NCBI GenBank assembly: GCA_017432615.1
Contig: JAFRIV010000046.1
Location: 1 to 57,426 of the forward strand
Length of the DNA: 57,426 nt
Reading direction: 5' to 3'
From: Oscillospiraceae bacterium
Lineage (GTDB): Bacteria; Bacillota; Clostridia; Oscillospirales; Oscillospiraceae
Shown here piece by piece: positions 14,970 to 20,490 of this stretch. Numbering within the stretch: position 1 is the first letter of the stretch; the number at the start of each line of letters is the position of its first letter. The position numbers were made by a program, and so were the translations under genes. Below the pieces are notes generated by a model. The model was given only the letters and a program-made list of their open reading frames with translations, searched no databases and was not told where the DNA came from.

Positions 14970-15076
14970 GCTTTCTTTCCTTAAGATATCCGGATCTGAC
15001 TTGAGAAAAATGCCGGTACCTCTGCCGGCGATGTGAAGCAGAGGGAAACACCGAAGATCTTTCAAGGAGACGAGAC

Positions 15077-17944
15077 ATGAAAAAACAGTTTATCAGTATT
15101 TTACTGGCGCTTGCGCTTCTTCTGCCTTCTGCAGGGATCGGAATGGCAGAACAGGAGAAAGCGGCGGAGCTTTCCGAGGCTGACCGTCTGGCTCTTGCCC
15201 GTCTGGGAGAAGAACTGCAGGAACCGGCGGCGATGCTTATGAAGTACGGGGAGGATGTGGATGATATTTACTCCAGGCTCCTTTGGCCTTCCATTGCCGA
15301 TACCTTCCCGGCAAAATTTGACCTGCGTGATCGCGGCGTCGTTACGCCGGTAAAAAGCCAGAACCCGTGGGGCACCTGCTGGAGTTTCGCAACGATGGCG
15401 GCGAGTGAAGCCAGCATCCTGAGTAAACTGGACCTGACGGCAGAAGAGTACGCGGAAAAGTATGGGGAAGAGATGGACCTTTCGGAAAAGCATCTGGCGT
15501 GGTTCACCACCAATGCACTGCCGCAGGCGGACGCCTATCCGGAAGGAGAGTATCCCTATGATATCAGCCAGGCGGGAGAAGGGGCTTATCTTCTTGGTGA
15601 GGATGATTTTTCGGCCTATAATTACGGCGGGAACTATTTTCTTTCCACCTCCAGCCTTGCCTCCGGCATCGGCGTCGTGAAGGAGGAAATCGCCCCCTAC
15701 TGCGACAGTGAAGGCAATCTGGACCGCGAAGGAGACTGGAGCCTCCCCGAGGAACTGCGTTTTACACAGAGTTTCGAACTGAAAAATGCCAACATGCTGC
15801 CTTCCCCTGCGGGAAAGGATGAAAACGGAAACTATGTGTATCGCCCGGAAGGGACCGAAGCCATCAAAAGTGAGCTGCTGAACGGGAGAGCCGTCGGCAT
15901 CTGCTTCCTTGCCGACCAGGCCATGCCGGATGACCCGCAGTACAGGCGTGATCTTTATCTTGAACTGTTTGCGGACAGTGAAGGGGTGACGGCGGAGGAG
16001 CTTGAAGAATATGTCGATTTCCGTGTCGGATTTACAGATGCCGATGCAGTATCGGATGAAGAACTTCAGAATCTGATGAAGATCGCCCAAAGAGTCTATC
16101 AACTGGAGGAGGACCCTTACAAAGATGCCGGGCTTGGCCGTGAACAGACGATCCGTATCCTGAGGTCCCGCTATATCGGCAAGCCTTATGACGAACTGGT
16201 TGCCTGTGAAGAGAAAGATGCGCGCACCTACATGTCCTTCGTCAGTGACGGGGATGCCTTCGTTTTTGCTCAGTACACCTATGAAAAGAAACAGGCTAAC
16301 CATGCCGTCACCGTGGTGGGCTGGGATGACAGTTTCCCGGCGTCCTCTTTTCGGGAGGGATTCCGGCCCCCCGCCGACGGCGCCTGGATCGTGAAGAACA
16401 GCTGGGGAGATACCTGGGGGACGGACGGCTATTTCTGGCTCTCCTACTACGATCAGAACCTCAGCGGCGTATGCAGTTTTGAATTCGTGGTGGAGGAAGA
16501 GAACCGGGAGATGAACAGTCTCTCTCTGCTGGAATATGACAATATGCCGGTGGAGATCAACAGTTCCACTCTCTTTGACCAGCCGGTATATGCCGGCAAT
16601 GTGTTCACCGTAGAGGAAAACAGCGTACTGCAGTACGTCTCCGTCATGACAGGCGATCTGAATACATCCGTTACGGTCTCCGTATATCTGCTGGATGACG
16701 ATGCCGTGCAGCCGGCGGACGGGAAACTGCTGGTGAGTGCTACAGAGGTCTTTTCCTTTGCCGGCTATCATCGGCTGGAACTGGAAGAAAAGGTCTCCCT
16801 GCCGGAAGGGGCCCGTATCGGTCTGGTGGTCCTGGAAAGAGTTCCTGTCGCCGAAGGGACGGAATATGCCCTGACCAATACAGGCAGCCTCGGAGAAAAG
16901 GCACCGGAAGCTTTCGCGGAGCGGCACCCGGAGAGCAGCAATAACCTCCAGCGCTTCTGCAAAGCCGTTGTCAACCCGGGGGAGAGTTTTGTGAAGTTCG
17001 GCGACGGCAGCTGGATCGACTGGACGGATGCTGTCAGCAGCTTTGCAGAAGATGGGGACTGCGCATACGTCGCTTATGATAATCTGCCTATCAAGGCTTA
17101 TCTGTATCCTGTCGATGAAGTGCTCCGCACGCATCGGTTTGGGGAAAAGATCCGGTCTGTTGCCGGGGAAGCCGCCATCTGCCCGGACTGCGGTTATACA
17201 CTCATAGACTGTATTTCCGGGGCGGGAAATGGGGATCCGCGTCCGCTGCTCTCTTTCCACATCGGGAACTTTGGCATTACGATCAGCAGAGCCGGTGTGG
17301 CGGTGAACCGCTATGTCGATCCGGGGTCGGCGCAGGCCGAACAGGCGGAAGAGGAACTTCTCCTTGATCCGGAGATCTCTCCCATCACGGTGGATTTTGA
17401 AGCTCTCCGGCAGCGGAACGCTGACGTGACCGGGTGGCTCTACTGCCCGGAAACAGCTGTCAACTATGCCGTCGTACAGACAAAGGACAATATGTCCTAT
17501 CTCCATAGCGATTTTGACGGCAATTACAGCTCCTACGGCACACTGTTTGTCGACTGCCTGTGTGAAAAGGATTTTCAGGGTGCCAACAGCATCATCTACG
17601 GCCACCACATGAACGACGGCAAAATGTTTGCCATGCTGGTCAACTATGCCAGACAGGATTACTTCAACCGCCATCCGGTCTTTTATCTCAGCACACCGGA
17701 GATGAATTACCGGGTAGAGCTGTTTGCCGGATATATCACCGGAATGTATTCCGACAGTTATGAGGTGTTTTTTGCCACACCGGAAGAAAAACAGGAGTGG
17801 CTGGACAGCGTGATCGCGCAGTCGATCTTTACCTCTCCTGTAGAAGTGCGCCCCGGCGACAGGATCCTCACCCTGTCCACCTGCACCTATGAATACGATG
17901 ATGCACGTTTTGTCGTTCACGGCAAACTGGTTCCGATCCACTAA
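15077..17944 (+). CDS. Papain-family (C1) cysteine protease fused to a class B sortase
   Basis: A 955-residue exported protein. Residues 1-24 are a signal peptide (ALALLLPSAGIGMA). Residues ~78-470 are a C1 peptidase: SQNPWGTCWSFA with the oxyanion Gln95 and Cys101, NHAVTVVGWD with His409, and VKNSWGDTWGTDGY with Asn441. Residues ~480-610 match the lectin-like domain that often follows C1 peptidases in clostridia. A CPDCGYTLIDC cysteine cluster follows near residue 705. Residues ~775-955 are a class B sortase: NADVTGWLY, YGHHM with His843, TLSTC with Cys936, and ARFVVHGKL with Arg944. Both triads look complete. Sortases join cell-wall substrates to peptidoglycan or pilin; C1 peptidases cleave. 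The frame is continuous, with AAGGAG before the ATG. No sortase substrate motif was seen in the neighbours. Confidence 0.88.
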   Translation: MKKQFISILLALALLLPSAGIGMAEQEKAAELSEADRLALARLGEELQEPAAMLMKYGEDVDDIYSRLLWPSIADTFPAKFDLRDRGVVTPVKSQNPWGTCWSFATMAASEASILSKLDLTAEEYAEKYGEEMDLSEKHLAWFTTNALPQADAYPEGEYPYDISQAGEGAYLLGEDDFSAYNYGGNYFLSTSSLASGIGVVKEEIAPYCDSEGNLDREGDWSLPEELRFTQSFELKNANMLPSPAGKDENGNYVYRPEGTEAIKSELLNGRAVGICFLADQAMPDDPQYRRDLYLELFADSEGVTAEELEEYVDFRVGFTDADAVSDEELQNLMKIAQRVYQLEEDPYKDAGLGREQTIRILRSRYIGKPYDELVACEEKDARTYMSFVSDGDAFVFAQYTYEKKQANHAVTVVGWDDSFPASSFREGFRPPADGAWIVKNSWGDTWGTDGYFWLSYYDQNLSGVCSFEFVVEEENREMNSLSLLEYDNMPVEINSSTLFDQPVYAGNVFTVEENSVLQYVSVMTGDLNTSVTVSVYLLDDDAVQPADGKLLVSATEVFSFAGYHRLELEEKVSLPEGARIGLVVLERVPVAEGTEYALTNTGSLGEKAPEAFAERHPESSNNLQRFCKAVVNPGESFVKFGDGSWIDWTDAVSSFAEDGDCAYVAYDNLPIKAYLYPVDEVLRTHRFGEKIRSVAGEAAICPDCGYTLIDCISGAGNGDPRPLLSFHIGNFGITISRAGVAVNRYVDPGSAQAEQAEEELLLDPEISPITVDFEALRQRNADVTGWLYCPETAVNYAVVQTKDNMSYLHSDFDGNYSSYGTLFVDCLCEKDFQGANSIIYGHHMNDGKMFAMLVNYARQDYFNRHPVFYLSTPEMNYRVELFAGYITGMYSDSYEVFFATPEEKQEWLDSVIAQSIFTSPVEVRPGDRILTLSTCTYEYDDARFVVHGKLVPIH

Positions 17945-17992
17945 AGGCGGTGCAGGCAGGCCGGATTCTGAATTCCGGAAAAACCGACAATA

Positions 17993-18058
17993 AAAAACAG
18001 GCCCGGGATCCGCTGCGCCGCAAGAGAGGCACGGAAGATCCCGGGCTTGCTGTTTTTT
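17993..18058. terminator. Bidirectional terminator
   Basis: GCCCGGGATC pairs with GATCCCGGGC (18001-18010 with 18037-18046), with AAAAAACAG on one side and CTGTTTTTT on the other. It separates the papain-sortase gene from the convergent lipase-like gene. Confidence 0.85.
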
Positions 18059-18099
18059 GATAAAGAGGGGTATCCCTGACAGGCGAAAGGGAGAGACGG

Positions 18100-20337
18100 T
18101 TAAGGAGCGGGCGCTGGAGAATGCATTTCTGATCCGGCGGAAGGGAATACCTTGCTCACAGTCATCTTGACTTTGTTGCCGCGAATGGCGATTTTGACGT
18201 CGTCGGCGAGATTCAGCAGAACGGATTGTTCATAACCGTCCCAGTCTCCATCCTTCAGGGGGGCACCTGCCGTCTTCTCAAAGACTACGGTGTTGTTCTG
18301 CGCGCCTGAGGCAAGTGCCTTTTCAAAACTGCATCGGAGCTTTTCCAGAAAGTCTCCGGAGGCGTTTTTTCCGGAGGAAGAGGAGGCAAGCAGCATCTGC
18401 CGCTTTTTCCGGTTCATCTCGGTCTCAGCCGTGATCAGCAGATCGTAACGCGCACCGTCACGCTCGATCCAGAAGGAAGCCGTCATCGTGCCGGTAATGG
18501 AGCGGAGCAGATTCAGCATTTCTTCCGCAAACAGCTGCAGGCGCAGAGAATCCTCCCGGCTGAGGGCATTGCGCTCCGCCATTTTGCGGGTTTCCTCCAG
18601 CGCATCCGTGAATCCGTTCCCCAGGGAGGTGACTTCGATAACAGCTGAGCGCATATTGGTCGCATCAAACGTCTTACCGACGGTGAGCAGGACCACACCG
18701 CCATGGATCGAAAGGCGGACAGAGCTTGCCAGCCGGTAGAGGACGGACTGCTCAAAACGTACCACATCCTCGACAGCCGGCGTCTCTGCGGAAACGCTTT
18801 CCAGAATGCCGGCAGGCAGCATTTCCATTTCCTCCGCGTCTGTGCCGGACAACAGAGCCTGCTCAAAGCGCCGCCGGAGCCATGTGCGGAAGCTGTCCGG
18901 TTCCGTCTTCTCCGGGATCGTGGGGATACTCAGCATCTGCCGTTTTTTTTCATCCATAAGGGTCCTGGTCGTCAACACAAGCTGAAAGCGGTTCCCCTCA
19001 CAGAGAACGCGGAAGGTGGCATTCCATTGGCCGGTCACACTGCGGATCATGCCGAGCATCTCTTCGGCAAGCAGCAGCAGATGGATCGTGTTCCGGGTGT
19101 TCAAGCCGGTAAATTCCGCCATCTTTTCAACTTCCGCCTTTGCCTGATCAAAGCCGTACCCGCGGTTATCAATATCGATCTGGTCGGAACGGATCAGAAG
19201 AGATTCTTTTCCGCCATTCTTCCAGCGAAGTTCTGCACCCATCATGGCAAGGGGCTTCCGGATCGTCTCTCCGAGGGTGTTTCCGATATGGATGGTCAGG
19301 AGTTTATAAAACAGGCTCAGCATATTCTGAACGGATTCTTCGTCCGGCTTTTCAAACGGGAGATCGATCTGCTGAAGGGGAGAAGAGCCTTTGCTTTTAC
19401 TCGCCAGAAGCGCAAACAGGGTATTGACGATGAGCTCCCGCTGTTCGGAAGAGCAGGTCTTCAGCCATTCATGGACGGAGTGATCCAGCAGCTGGGATCT
19501 TCTCGTGTTGTTGTCGGCCATCAGAAAACCGGCCCCGAGGATCTCCCAGGTGAAAGAATTGTGCTGTTTGATTGATGTGGAAGTGGATCTTACCACACGA
19601 TAGTTCGGATGGTAATTGAGAAGCAGCCCTACGACCGACTCGGCTGGGATCAGCGAGACCAGCTTGTCCCGGATGCGCAGGTATCCGTCGGAGACCATGG
19701 TTTCATCGTCCAGGCCGGGTCCGTCAAAGGAATAGACGGTATGCAGCCTTGCCTGGATCTGTTTGCTTGTATGCGCAGCGGAATAAACGGCCAGATTTCC
19801 ACCCTTGCTGTGGCCGGTGAGGATCAGCTCTCCGGAGACCCGCTCTGAGATCTTCTTCAGGTAGGCAAGGGCCGCCGTCTGGGAGGGAACCGGCGACTCA
19901 TAGCTCATCATGAAGTCTTCCTTCCAGCCCACCAGAGAAGAATCCGTTCCGCGATAGGCAATGACCGTTCCTATACCGGGGACAGAAAAAGTTATCGCGG
20001 AGAACTGAATATTGCGGCTCGCATCCAGCTCACCCGTCTGATCTAAAATTCTGAGATCCTGAAAACGCCTGCAGTTTATCATTTCCTCCAGTAAAAGCTC
20101 TATGTCGGCTATAAACTGGTTGTGAGAGGGAAAGGAATAGGTGGGAAAAACATCCTGCAGCGGCTGCCCCTCTTTGGCTTCGGAAGGGGACACGCTGAAG
20201 TCGGCATAGGAGACCGTCGCAAGGACCAGGGCGTCGATCTCATTCCAGGGACTGTCCGAAAAGGAGAGATCTCCGCGCCAGGCCAGATAATCCAGAAGAT
20301 TGCCGCTGCGCAAGCTTTGTGTAACAGCCCTGTTCAT
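18100..20337 (-). CDS. DUF2974 (Mbeg1-like) lipase-type hydrolase with a duplicated C-terminal domain of unknown type
   Basis: A 745-residue protein. Residues ~20-300 resemble the Mbeg1-like/DUF2974 alpha-beta hydrolases: AYRGTDSSLVGWKEDF, the nucleophile elbow ILTGHSKGGNLA with Ser177, and YSFDGPGLD with a candidate acid. Residues ~375-555 and ~560-735 are two copies of a domain I do not recognise. Paired motifs are AEEMLGMIRSVTG and AEEMLNLLRSITG, DEKKRQML and NRKKRQML, and FEQSVLYRLASSVRL and YEQSVLLNLADDVKI. The helical EEML segment faintly recalls the ATP-binding domain of anti-sigma kinases. No signal peptide is seen, so it is probably cytosolic. The start at 20337 has AAAGGAG at good spacing; the longer upstream frame lacks one. 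Confidence 0.7.
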   Translation of the reverse strand: MNRAVTQSLRSGNLLDYLAWRGDLSFSDSPWNEIDALVLATVSYADFSVSPSEAKEGQPLQDVFPTYSFPSHNQFIADIELLLEEMINCRRFQDLRILDQTGELDASRNIQFSAITFSVPGIGTVIAYRGTDSSLVGWKEDFMMSYESPVPSQTAALAYLKKISERVSGELILTGHSKGGNLAVYSAAHTSKQIQARLHTVYSFDGPGLDDETMVSDGYLRIRDKLVSLIPAESVVGLLLNYHPNYRVVRSTSTSIKQHNSFTWEILGAGFLMADNNTRRSQLLDHSVHEWLKTCSSEQRELIVNTLFALLASKSKGSSPLQQIDLPFEKPDEESVQNMLSLFYKLLTIHIGNTLGETIRKPLAMMGAELRWKNGGKESLLIRSDQIDIDNRGYGFDQAKAEVEKMAEFTGLNTRNTIHLLLLAEEMLGMIRSVTGQWNATFRVLCEGNRFQLVLTTRTLMDEKKRQMLSIPTIPEKTEPDSFRTWLRRRFEQALLSGTDAEEMEMLPAGILESVSAETPAVEDVVRFEQSVLYRLASSVRLSIHGGVVLLTVGKTFDATNMRSAVIEVTSLGNGFTDALEETRKMAERNALSREDSLRLQLFAEEMLNLLRSITGTMTASFWIERDGARYDLLITAETEMNRKKRQMLLASSSSGKNASGDFLEKLRCSFEKALASGAQNNTVVFEKTAGAPLKDGDWDGYEQSVLLNLADDVKIAIRGNKVKMTVSKVFPSAGSEMHSPAPAP

Positions 20338-20416
20338 ATCCGGCGCTCCTTTCTGTTTAGGGATTTGGTGAGGATCCGCAGGGGAGAGAAAATGCAAAGG
20401 GAAAGGAAGCAGCTGC

Positions 20417-20446
20417 TTGCATTCCGGGGGGAAAGTAGAGTATGAT
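20417..20446 (+). promoter_or_regulatory. Promoter of the PIG-L deacetylase gene
   Basis: TTGCAT (20417-20422) and TATGAT (20441-20446) are 18 bases apart, 45 bases before the start codon. Confidence 0.5.
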
Positions 20447-20490
20447 GTCATCAGCCGATCGGCATACAGCCGAGAAAGGGGAAACAACAC

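Follow-up and report, generated by a model that had tools for sequence, protein, structure and literature searches.

A probable lineage-specific fusion of a Cwp84-like protease gene to an anchorless class B sortase domain in an Oscillospiraceae genome

There is a single frame of 955 amino acids in the window, which is the whole stretch of 57,426 nucleotides analysed here, that carries in this order a signal peptide, a papain-type (C1A) protease domain, a lectin-like domain and a class B sortase domain. The window comes from the draft genome, with 87% completeness, of an uncultured bacterium of the Oscillospiraceae, and this is the only genome in which the fusion was found. Comparisons of sequence lead us to read the gene as a lineage-specific fusion, wherein a whole Cwp84-like protease gene and an anchorless sortase copy would together encode a secreted enzyme for processing surface proteins, and we give this reading about an even chance of being correct. 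The features of the gene and its immediate surroundings are listed below.

15064..15069, plus strand: AAGGAG ribosome-binding-type sequence, 7 bases 5' of the ATG (from the sequence)
15077..17944, plus strand: fused gene, 955 amino acids and a stop, one ATG-started frame (domain and residue checks)
15077..15148, plus strand: signal peptide of the cleavable type, residues 1-24 (hydropathy scan; a cut after GMA is predicted by eye)
15302..16501, plus strand: papain-type (C1A) domain, residues ~76-475, with Gln95, Cys101, His409 and Asn441 (Pfam, PDB match, alignment)
15377..15379, plus strand: codon of the nucleophile Cys101 (residue check)
16577..17023, plus strand: lectin-like domain PF18560, residues 501-649, as in Cwp84 (Pfam, alignment with Cwp84)
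17180..17212, plus strand: CPDCGYTLIDC, the C-terminal tail where stand-alone relatives end (comparison with relatives)
17213..17335, plus strand: private linker of ~41 amino acids, residues ~713-753, with no transmembrane segment (comparison with own genome and genus)
17336..17941, plus strand: class B sortase domain with no membrane anchor, residues ~754-955, with His843, Cys936 and Arg944 (NCBIfam, PDB match, alignment)
17882..17884, plus strand: codon of the nucleophile Cys936 (residue check)
17988..18059, no strand assigned: terminator-like inverted repeat with A/T ends, 3' of the gene (repeat search; absent from the terminator-scan list)

All three domains score above their Pfam cut-offs (Peptidase_C1, E 1.5e-19; Lectin_like, E 3.3e-11; Sortase, E 1.9e-9). 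A preliminary description of this DNA had proposed that both catalytic sets lie in a single polypeptide behind a signal peptide, which is borne out by the frame together with the Pfam and NCBIfam matches, and the seven catalytic residues that it named (Gln95, Cys101, His409, Asn441, His843, Cys936 and Arg944) are all in place at the numbers it had given. The domain and residue evidence for a protease-sortase frame is far beyond chance. The signal peptide is the sole segment above the hydropathy threshold in the entire protein.

There is also an antisense frame of 946 amino acids (15101-17941, minus strand) opposite the entire fused gene, with a counterpart of 695 amino acids opposite the relative in L054, and this is probably an effect of codon composition. 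The neighbouring gene at 18103-20490 (minus strand) encodes a protein of 796 amino acids comprising an Mbeg1-like domain and an extended, unnamed C-terminal part, the end of which also matches frames of 181-202 amino acids in genus-mates.

Residues 1-712 form a complete secreted protease, and its relatives stop there. The C1A domain scores 71.4 bits against a cut-off of 20.7, its Gln, Cys, His and Asn are common to all 10 aligned rows, and it has an insertion between Cys and His that is shared by close relatives. The lectin-like domain scores 44.1 bits against a cut-off of 27. The closest protease relatives (L001-L004, 58-68% identical to the window protein) have a stop codon at the point that matches residue ~712 of the fused protein, preceded by a tail reading CPxCGY, CPxCGF or CPEDGY. 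The CPDC cluster had been regarded as a separate element; instead it is the tail with which the stand-alone proteases of this family end, and its second Cys varies (CPED in L003 and L004). The same kind of tail is present in the stand-alone C1A-lectin proteins L001-L004, L013, L057, L060 and L061, mostly from the same genus, and these proteins end at or shortly past it with no sortase, whereas the window protein continues into one. The protease half is matched over most of its length in at least seven other genus genomes, one of which has two copies. The relative in L003, a stand-alone protease with 59% identity, lies on a contig titled Anaerolineaceae (Chloroflexota), a placement that may reflect gene transfer or a mislabelled bin.

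The nearest characterized relative is Cwp84 of Clostridioides difficile (PDB 4ci7 and 4d59), which is the PDB neighbour by sequence of residues 401-588. Both proteins run from a signal peptide through an N-terminal stretch to a C1A domain and a lectin-like domain, and both domains can be aligned. In the window protein the catalytic Asn441 lies in KNSW, whereas Cwp84 has Ser at that place. Cwp84 continues into cell-wall-binding domains, as described in the available text of PMC4089489, whereas the window protein continues into the sortase domain. Pfam found no C-terminal wall-binding modules of the Cwp84 kind in the window protein up to E 0.1, and L001 and L002 are also devoid of them. The lectin-like part may hold the enzyme at the wall, by analogy with Cwp84, for which carbohydrate binding is itself only proposed.

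The sortase half scores 169.3 bits with the NCBIfam class B model TIGR03064 (cut-off 153.75), and its neighbours by sequence in the PDB are class B sortases, among them Listeria Lmo2181 (residues 777-951) and C. difficile SrtB (residues 772-951 and 747-952). His843, Cys936 (in TLxTC) and Arg944 align with those of 5gyj and 5jcv. Thus, the window protein resembles a class B sortase such as C. difficile SrtB (PDB 5gyj) both in its TIGR03064 score and in its aligned His, Cys and Arg. The earlier claim of a complete class B sortase holds for the catalytic domain, but the anchor part is missing, since the profile is matched only over positions 59-235 (4-235 in the anchored sortase of the same genome) and a hydropathy scan revealed no membrane anchor beside the domain, with a linker maximum of 1.06. 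The window protein thus has a domain of the class B sortase type but not the usual layout of such a sortase protein. According to the available text of PMC5118464, C. difficile SrtB carries a transmembrane part at its N-terminus, whereas the window sortase is the anchorless end of a secreted protease.

One way to explain such an ending is docking, wherein the sortase domain mainly binds sorting signals or wall precursors and so positions the protease. This idea draws on L045, a C1 and lectin-like relative from another genus that ends in three SLH domains, and on the close genus relatives that end without any anchor. However, a module that only binds would not require the catalytic Cys, His and Arg, yet these and the residues around them are conserved, and we judge docking to be unlikely.

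There are two sortases in the genome by PF04203, namely the fused copy and an anchored copy on contig C16 that is 74% identical to the fused domain. The close stand-alone sortases of the genus are frames of ~270-290 amino acids with an N-terminal hydrophobic segment (measured for L012) and a stalk, and they match the window protein only from residue ~743-750 onward. The DNA likeness to the own-genome sortase begins inside the stalk, at window position ~17340, and continues to the end with 77% identity over 603 alignment columns. Given that the protease ends at residue ~712 and is followed by a private linker, with the sortase likeness starting at ~17340, the gene is best described as a whole protease gene, a linker, and a sortase gene that lacks its anchor and stalk.

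Among the matches listed, there is no relative of the linker in its own genome or in the other 101 genus genomes, only short matches at chance level, the best of which inside the linker covers 24 bases (E 0.0019). There is likewise no match for the linker in the stalks of stand-alone sortases or in the DNA 3' of the stand-alone protease genes that were compared. By eye it resembles a worn-out membrane anchor, a likeness that was not borne out by DNA and protein alignment. One possibility is that the fusion is a co-secretion device only, wherein the exported protein is cut at the linker by its papain domain, freeing two ordinary enzymes. A private linker devoid of known domains would suit this purpose, and papain-type peptidases often remove their own propeptide, with Cwp84 having a cleavable one (PMC4089489, available text). 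Set against this, the freed sortase would be unanchored and the linker might just as well serve as a permanent spacer, and we regard cleavage of this kind as rather unlikely.

The possibility must also be considered that two contigs or genomes were wrongly joined inside a gene, as this is a single case in a draft genome and a synteny check for a chimera found no gene order shared with the compared loci of relatives. However, the join keeps the reading frame and coincides with the 3' end of the protease gene, the linker is unlike the stalks and downstream DNA of the stand-alone genes compared, no repeat family was found inside 17213-17335, GC content is even across the junction, and the sortase part is 77%, not 100%, like the other copy in the genome. 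These characteristics make an assembly error very unlikely.

Both halves appear by sequence comparison to be under purifying selection with their catalytic centres kept. For the protease part, dN/dS is 0.09-0.17 against five stand-alone rows, and six of the 200 columns that are invariant in eight other full-length rows (the partial row L058 being left out) are changed, none of them catalytic; the other rows have 1-15 such changes. For the fused sortase and the own-genome copy, dN is 0.156, dS is 1.33 and dN/dS is 0.117, an estimate that is rough because dS is near saturation and that spans time before the fusion as well. Seven of 95 otherwise invariant columns are changed in the fused sortase, again none catalytic, compared with 0-2 in the comparison rows by the same test; these columns were defined on 13 rows, of which 9 are distinct, as four pairs each represent one sequence twice. 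These seven changes and a long branch indicate that selection on the fused sortase may be relaxed or altered.

Perhaps, then, the protein is a working protease with a folded sortase tail that has no role. The branch of the fused sortase (0.32, against 0.043 for the own-genome copy) and its changed columns point in this direction, as does the anchored sortase that the genome retains. However, the dN/dS value, the kept catalytic residues and the absence of any stop or frameshift in the sortase part argue for a function, and we consider an idle tail to be quite improbable.

The fused sortase belongs to a close clade (support 100/100) with the anchored sortases of its own and four other genomes and with four further proteins, L080-L083. 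In a 61-row tree, from which matches shorter than 170 amino acids, with stops or identical to others were dropped, it is the sister of the own-genome copy (93/81), with the branch lengths given above. In a smaller protein tree the two branches measure 0.28 and 0.062, and three alternative placements have AU p values of 0.109-0.369. With two DNA sets, AU p is 0.468 and 0.182 for the fused and own copies together and 0.216 and 0.156 for the fused copy with the L080 group, and in the best DNA trees the fused copy branches outside the anchored sortases, with weak support of 41/45 and 63/82. A firm placement beside the own-genome copy is thus not upheld by the smaller protein tree and the DNA trees.

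The architecture appears to be rare. A scan of a species-genome collection with short peptide patterns, which finds close relatives only, yielded 10 relatives: the matches of four (L001-L004) are confined to residues 1-717, and those of the other six (L005-L010) to residues 722-955. The search for homologues with the same domain order that had been suggested earlier returned only the window's genome: among the matches listed, the order C1, lectin-like and SrtB was not found elsewhere in 400 family, 102 genus and 394 order genomes, nor in 391 class genomes. These samples overlap, at most two candidates per genome were scored in the family, order and class searches, and the E limits were 1e-20 for the order and 1e-25 for the class, such that a distant or rare second case could escape. 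The same short patterns gave no match in IMG/VR (close relatives only), and none of 72,556 plasmid records covered 80% of the query. Titles and the starts of abstracts, with most subscription papers outside this scope, revealed no natural protease-sortase fusion in the literature. The available parts of PMC10318531, PMC10380794, PMC4089489 and PMC5118464 do not describe one; in these parts PMC10318531 names sortase once, as another fold, and the word is absent from the main text of PMC10380794.

There are four other representatives of an anchorless sortase in this genus, the L080-L083 proteins of genomes G459, G420, G428 and G407, which are frames of 410-453 amino acids. As in the window protein, a cleavable-type signal peptide and an extra N-terminal domain precede an anchorless sortase of the same close clade; this domain is unnamed and not a protease, whereas that of the window protein is C1A. 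The two that were tested, L080 and L082, exceed the TIGR03064 cut-off, with profile matches that begin only at positions 60 and 55. The N-terminal part has no Pfam match (two proteins) and no PDB match. It is matched in 12 of 102 genus genomes, these four included; the matches in the remaining eight are weak (E 2e-11 to 4e-4), and seven of them sit in frames of 297-331 amino acids. Anchorless-sortase joins thus arose at least twice in the genus, behind two different proteins with signal peptides, which argues against the window fusion being a mere oddity.

Sortases with additional domains are in themselves not uncommon in the order. Among eight long order frames, Pfam identified SpaA with sortase (one), CinA with sortase (two), CinA with sortase and SpoIID (one), sortase with SpoIID (one), sortase with Big_2 (one) and sortase only (two). 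Six further frames comprise SpaA with sortase (two), CinA with sortase (one), sortase with an adenosyltransferase (one), sortase only (one) and a C1, lectin-like and SLH protein with no sortase. NCBIfam was run on five of the adhesin or CinA fusions, and all of these exceed the class B cut-off. The following frames are examples.

L120:5132-10063, minus strand: TED and SpaA-type adhesin, another hydrophobic segment and then a class B sortase, one frame
L121:855-5741, plus strand: TED and SpaA-type adhesin, another hydrophobic segment and then a class B sortase, one frame
L136:3729-8738, minus strand: TED and SpaA-type adhesin, another hydrophobic segment and then a class B sortase, one frame
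L123:25-2463, plus strand: CinA (MoCF, KH and CinA) and sortase, one frame, above the class B cut-off
L128:2928-6119, minus strand: CinA (MoCF, KH and CinA) and sortase, one frame
L130:2897-6259, minus strand: CinA (MoCF, KH and CinA) and sortase, then SpoIID, one frame, above the class B cut-off
L122:2059-4377, minus strand: CinA (MoCF, KH and CinA) and sortase, one frame
L093:1828-3387, minus strand: signal peptidase I-like stretch (SGSMEPAI, by eye) and sortase, one frame; sortase only by Pfam
L049:532-2418, minus strand: sortase frame running on into an ATP:corrinoid adenosyltransferase (CobA_CobO_BtuR, 2.7e-40)

The general statement that sortases are normally separate and membrane-tethered must therefore be softened, as class B sortases are joined to SpaA-type adhesins and to CinA, once together with SpoIID, in the order and to a signal-peptide-bearing domain in the genus, but the C1, lectin-like and SrtB order itself occurs nowhere else searched. 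In L120, L121 and L136, which represent three genera, the adhesin has its own sorting signal by eye (VPQTGDD...), and each might be a substrate fused to its sortase that could cut itself loose.

There is no clear sorting signal inside the window, where 239 frames of 80 or more amino acids gave 8 motif matches, and inspection by eye showed no clear hydrophobic stretch plus basic tail in any of them. A profile built from four signals found with PF00746 and TIGR03063 and then run on the genome matches six sites: the four used to build it (SPKTGDD, SPRTGDN, RPMTGDD and NPSTGDN), KPITGDD (E 1.2e-8) and the weak APRTGDA (E 0.158). The preliminary suggestion that targets lie away from the gene agrees with these candidates, which have the form xPxTGD in five good cases and one weak one; it had proposed a genome-wide look for NPQTN- or NPKTG-like signals. 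Two of these are SPxTG, the type of C. difficile SrtB, which cuts (S/P)PXTG according to the available text of PMC5118464.

On the reading that we prefer, a whole Cwp84-like protease gene has been fused in frame, right at its 3' end, to a copy of the class B sortase gene of the genus, stripped of anchor and stalk. The signal peptide would export the product, which may be released or loosely held at the surface. The C1A domain would cut surface proteins, and the sortase domain would recognize surface proteins of a common pool by their xPxTGD tails, for joining, hydrolysis or docking, with routine anchoring presumably left to the anchored sortase of the same genome. Sortases act from the membrane, and an unanchored one may therefore be inefficient.

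A more specific and more doubtful proposal is that the protein is a secreted two-enzyme machine, one of at least two cases in the genus of a sortase as a C-terminal module, wherein the papain domain cuts surface proteins and the anchorless class B sortase rejoins or releases them away from the membrane. If this were true, sortase chemistry would perhaps take place on neighbouring cells or on released proteins. The usual view of sortases is that of membrane-bound enzymes with a single domain. A natural secreted protease-sortase, together with its parallels in the genus, makes it testable whether sortases work off the membrane and whether the trimming and joining of surface proteins are coupled in one chain, and a natural protease-ligase fusion is also a candidate for protein engineering.
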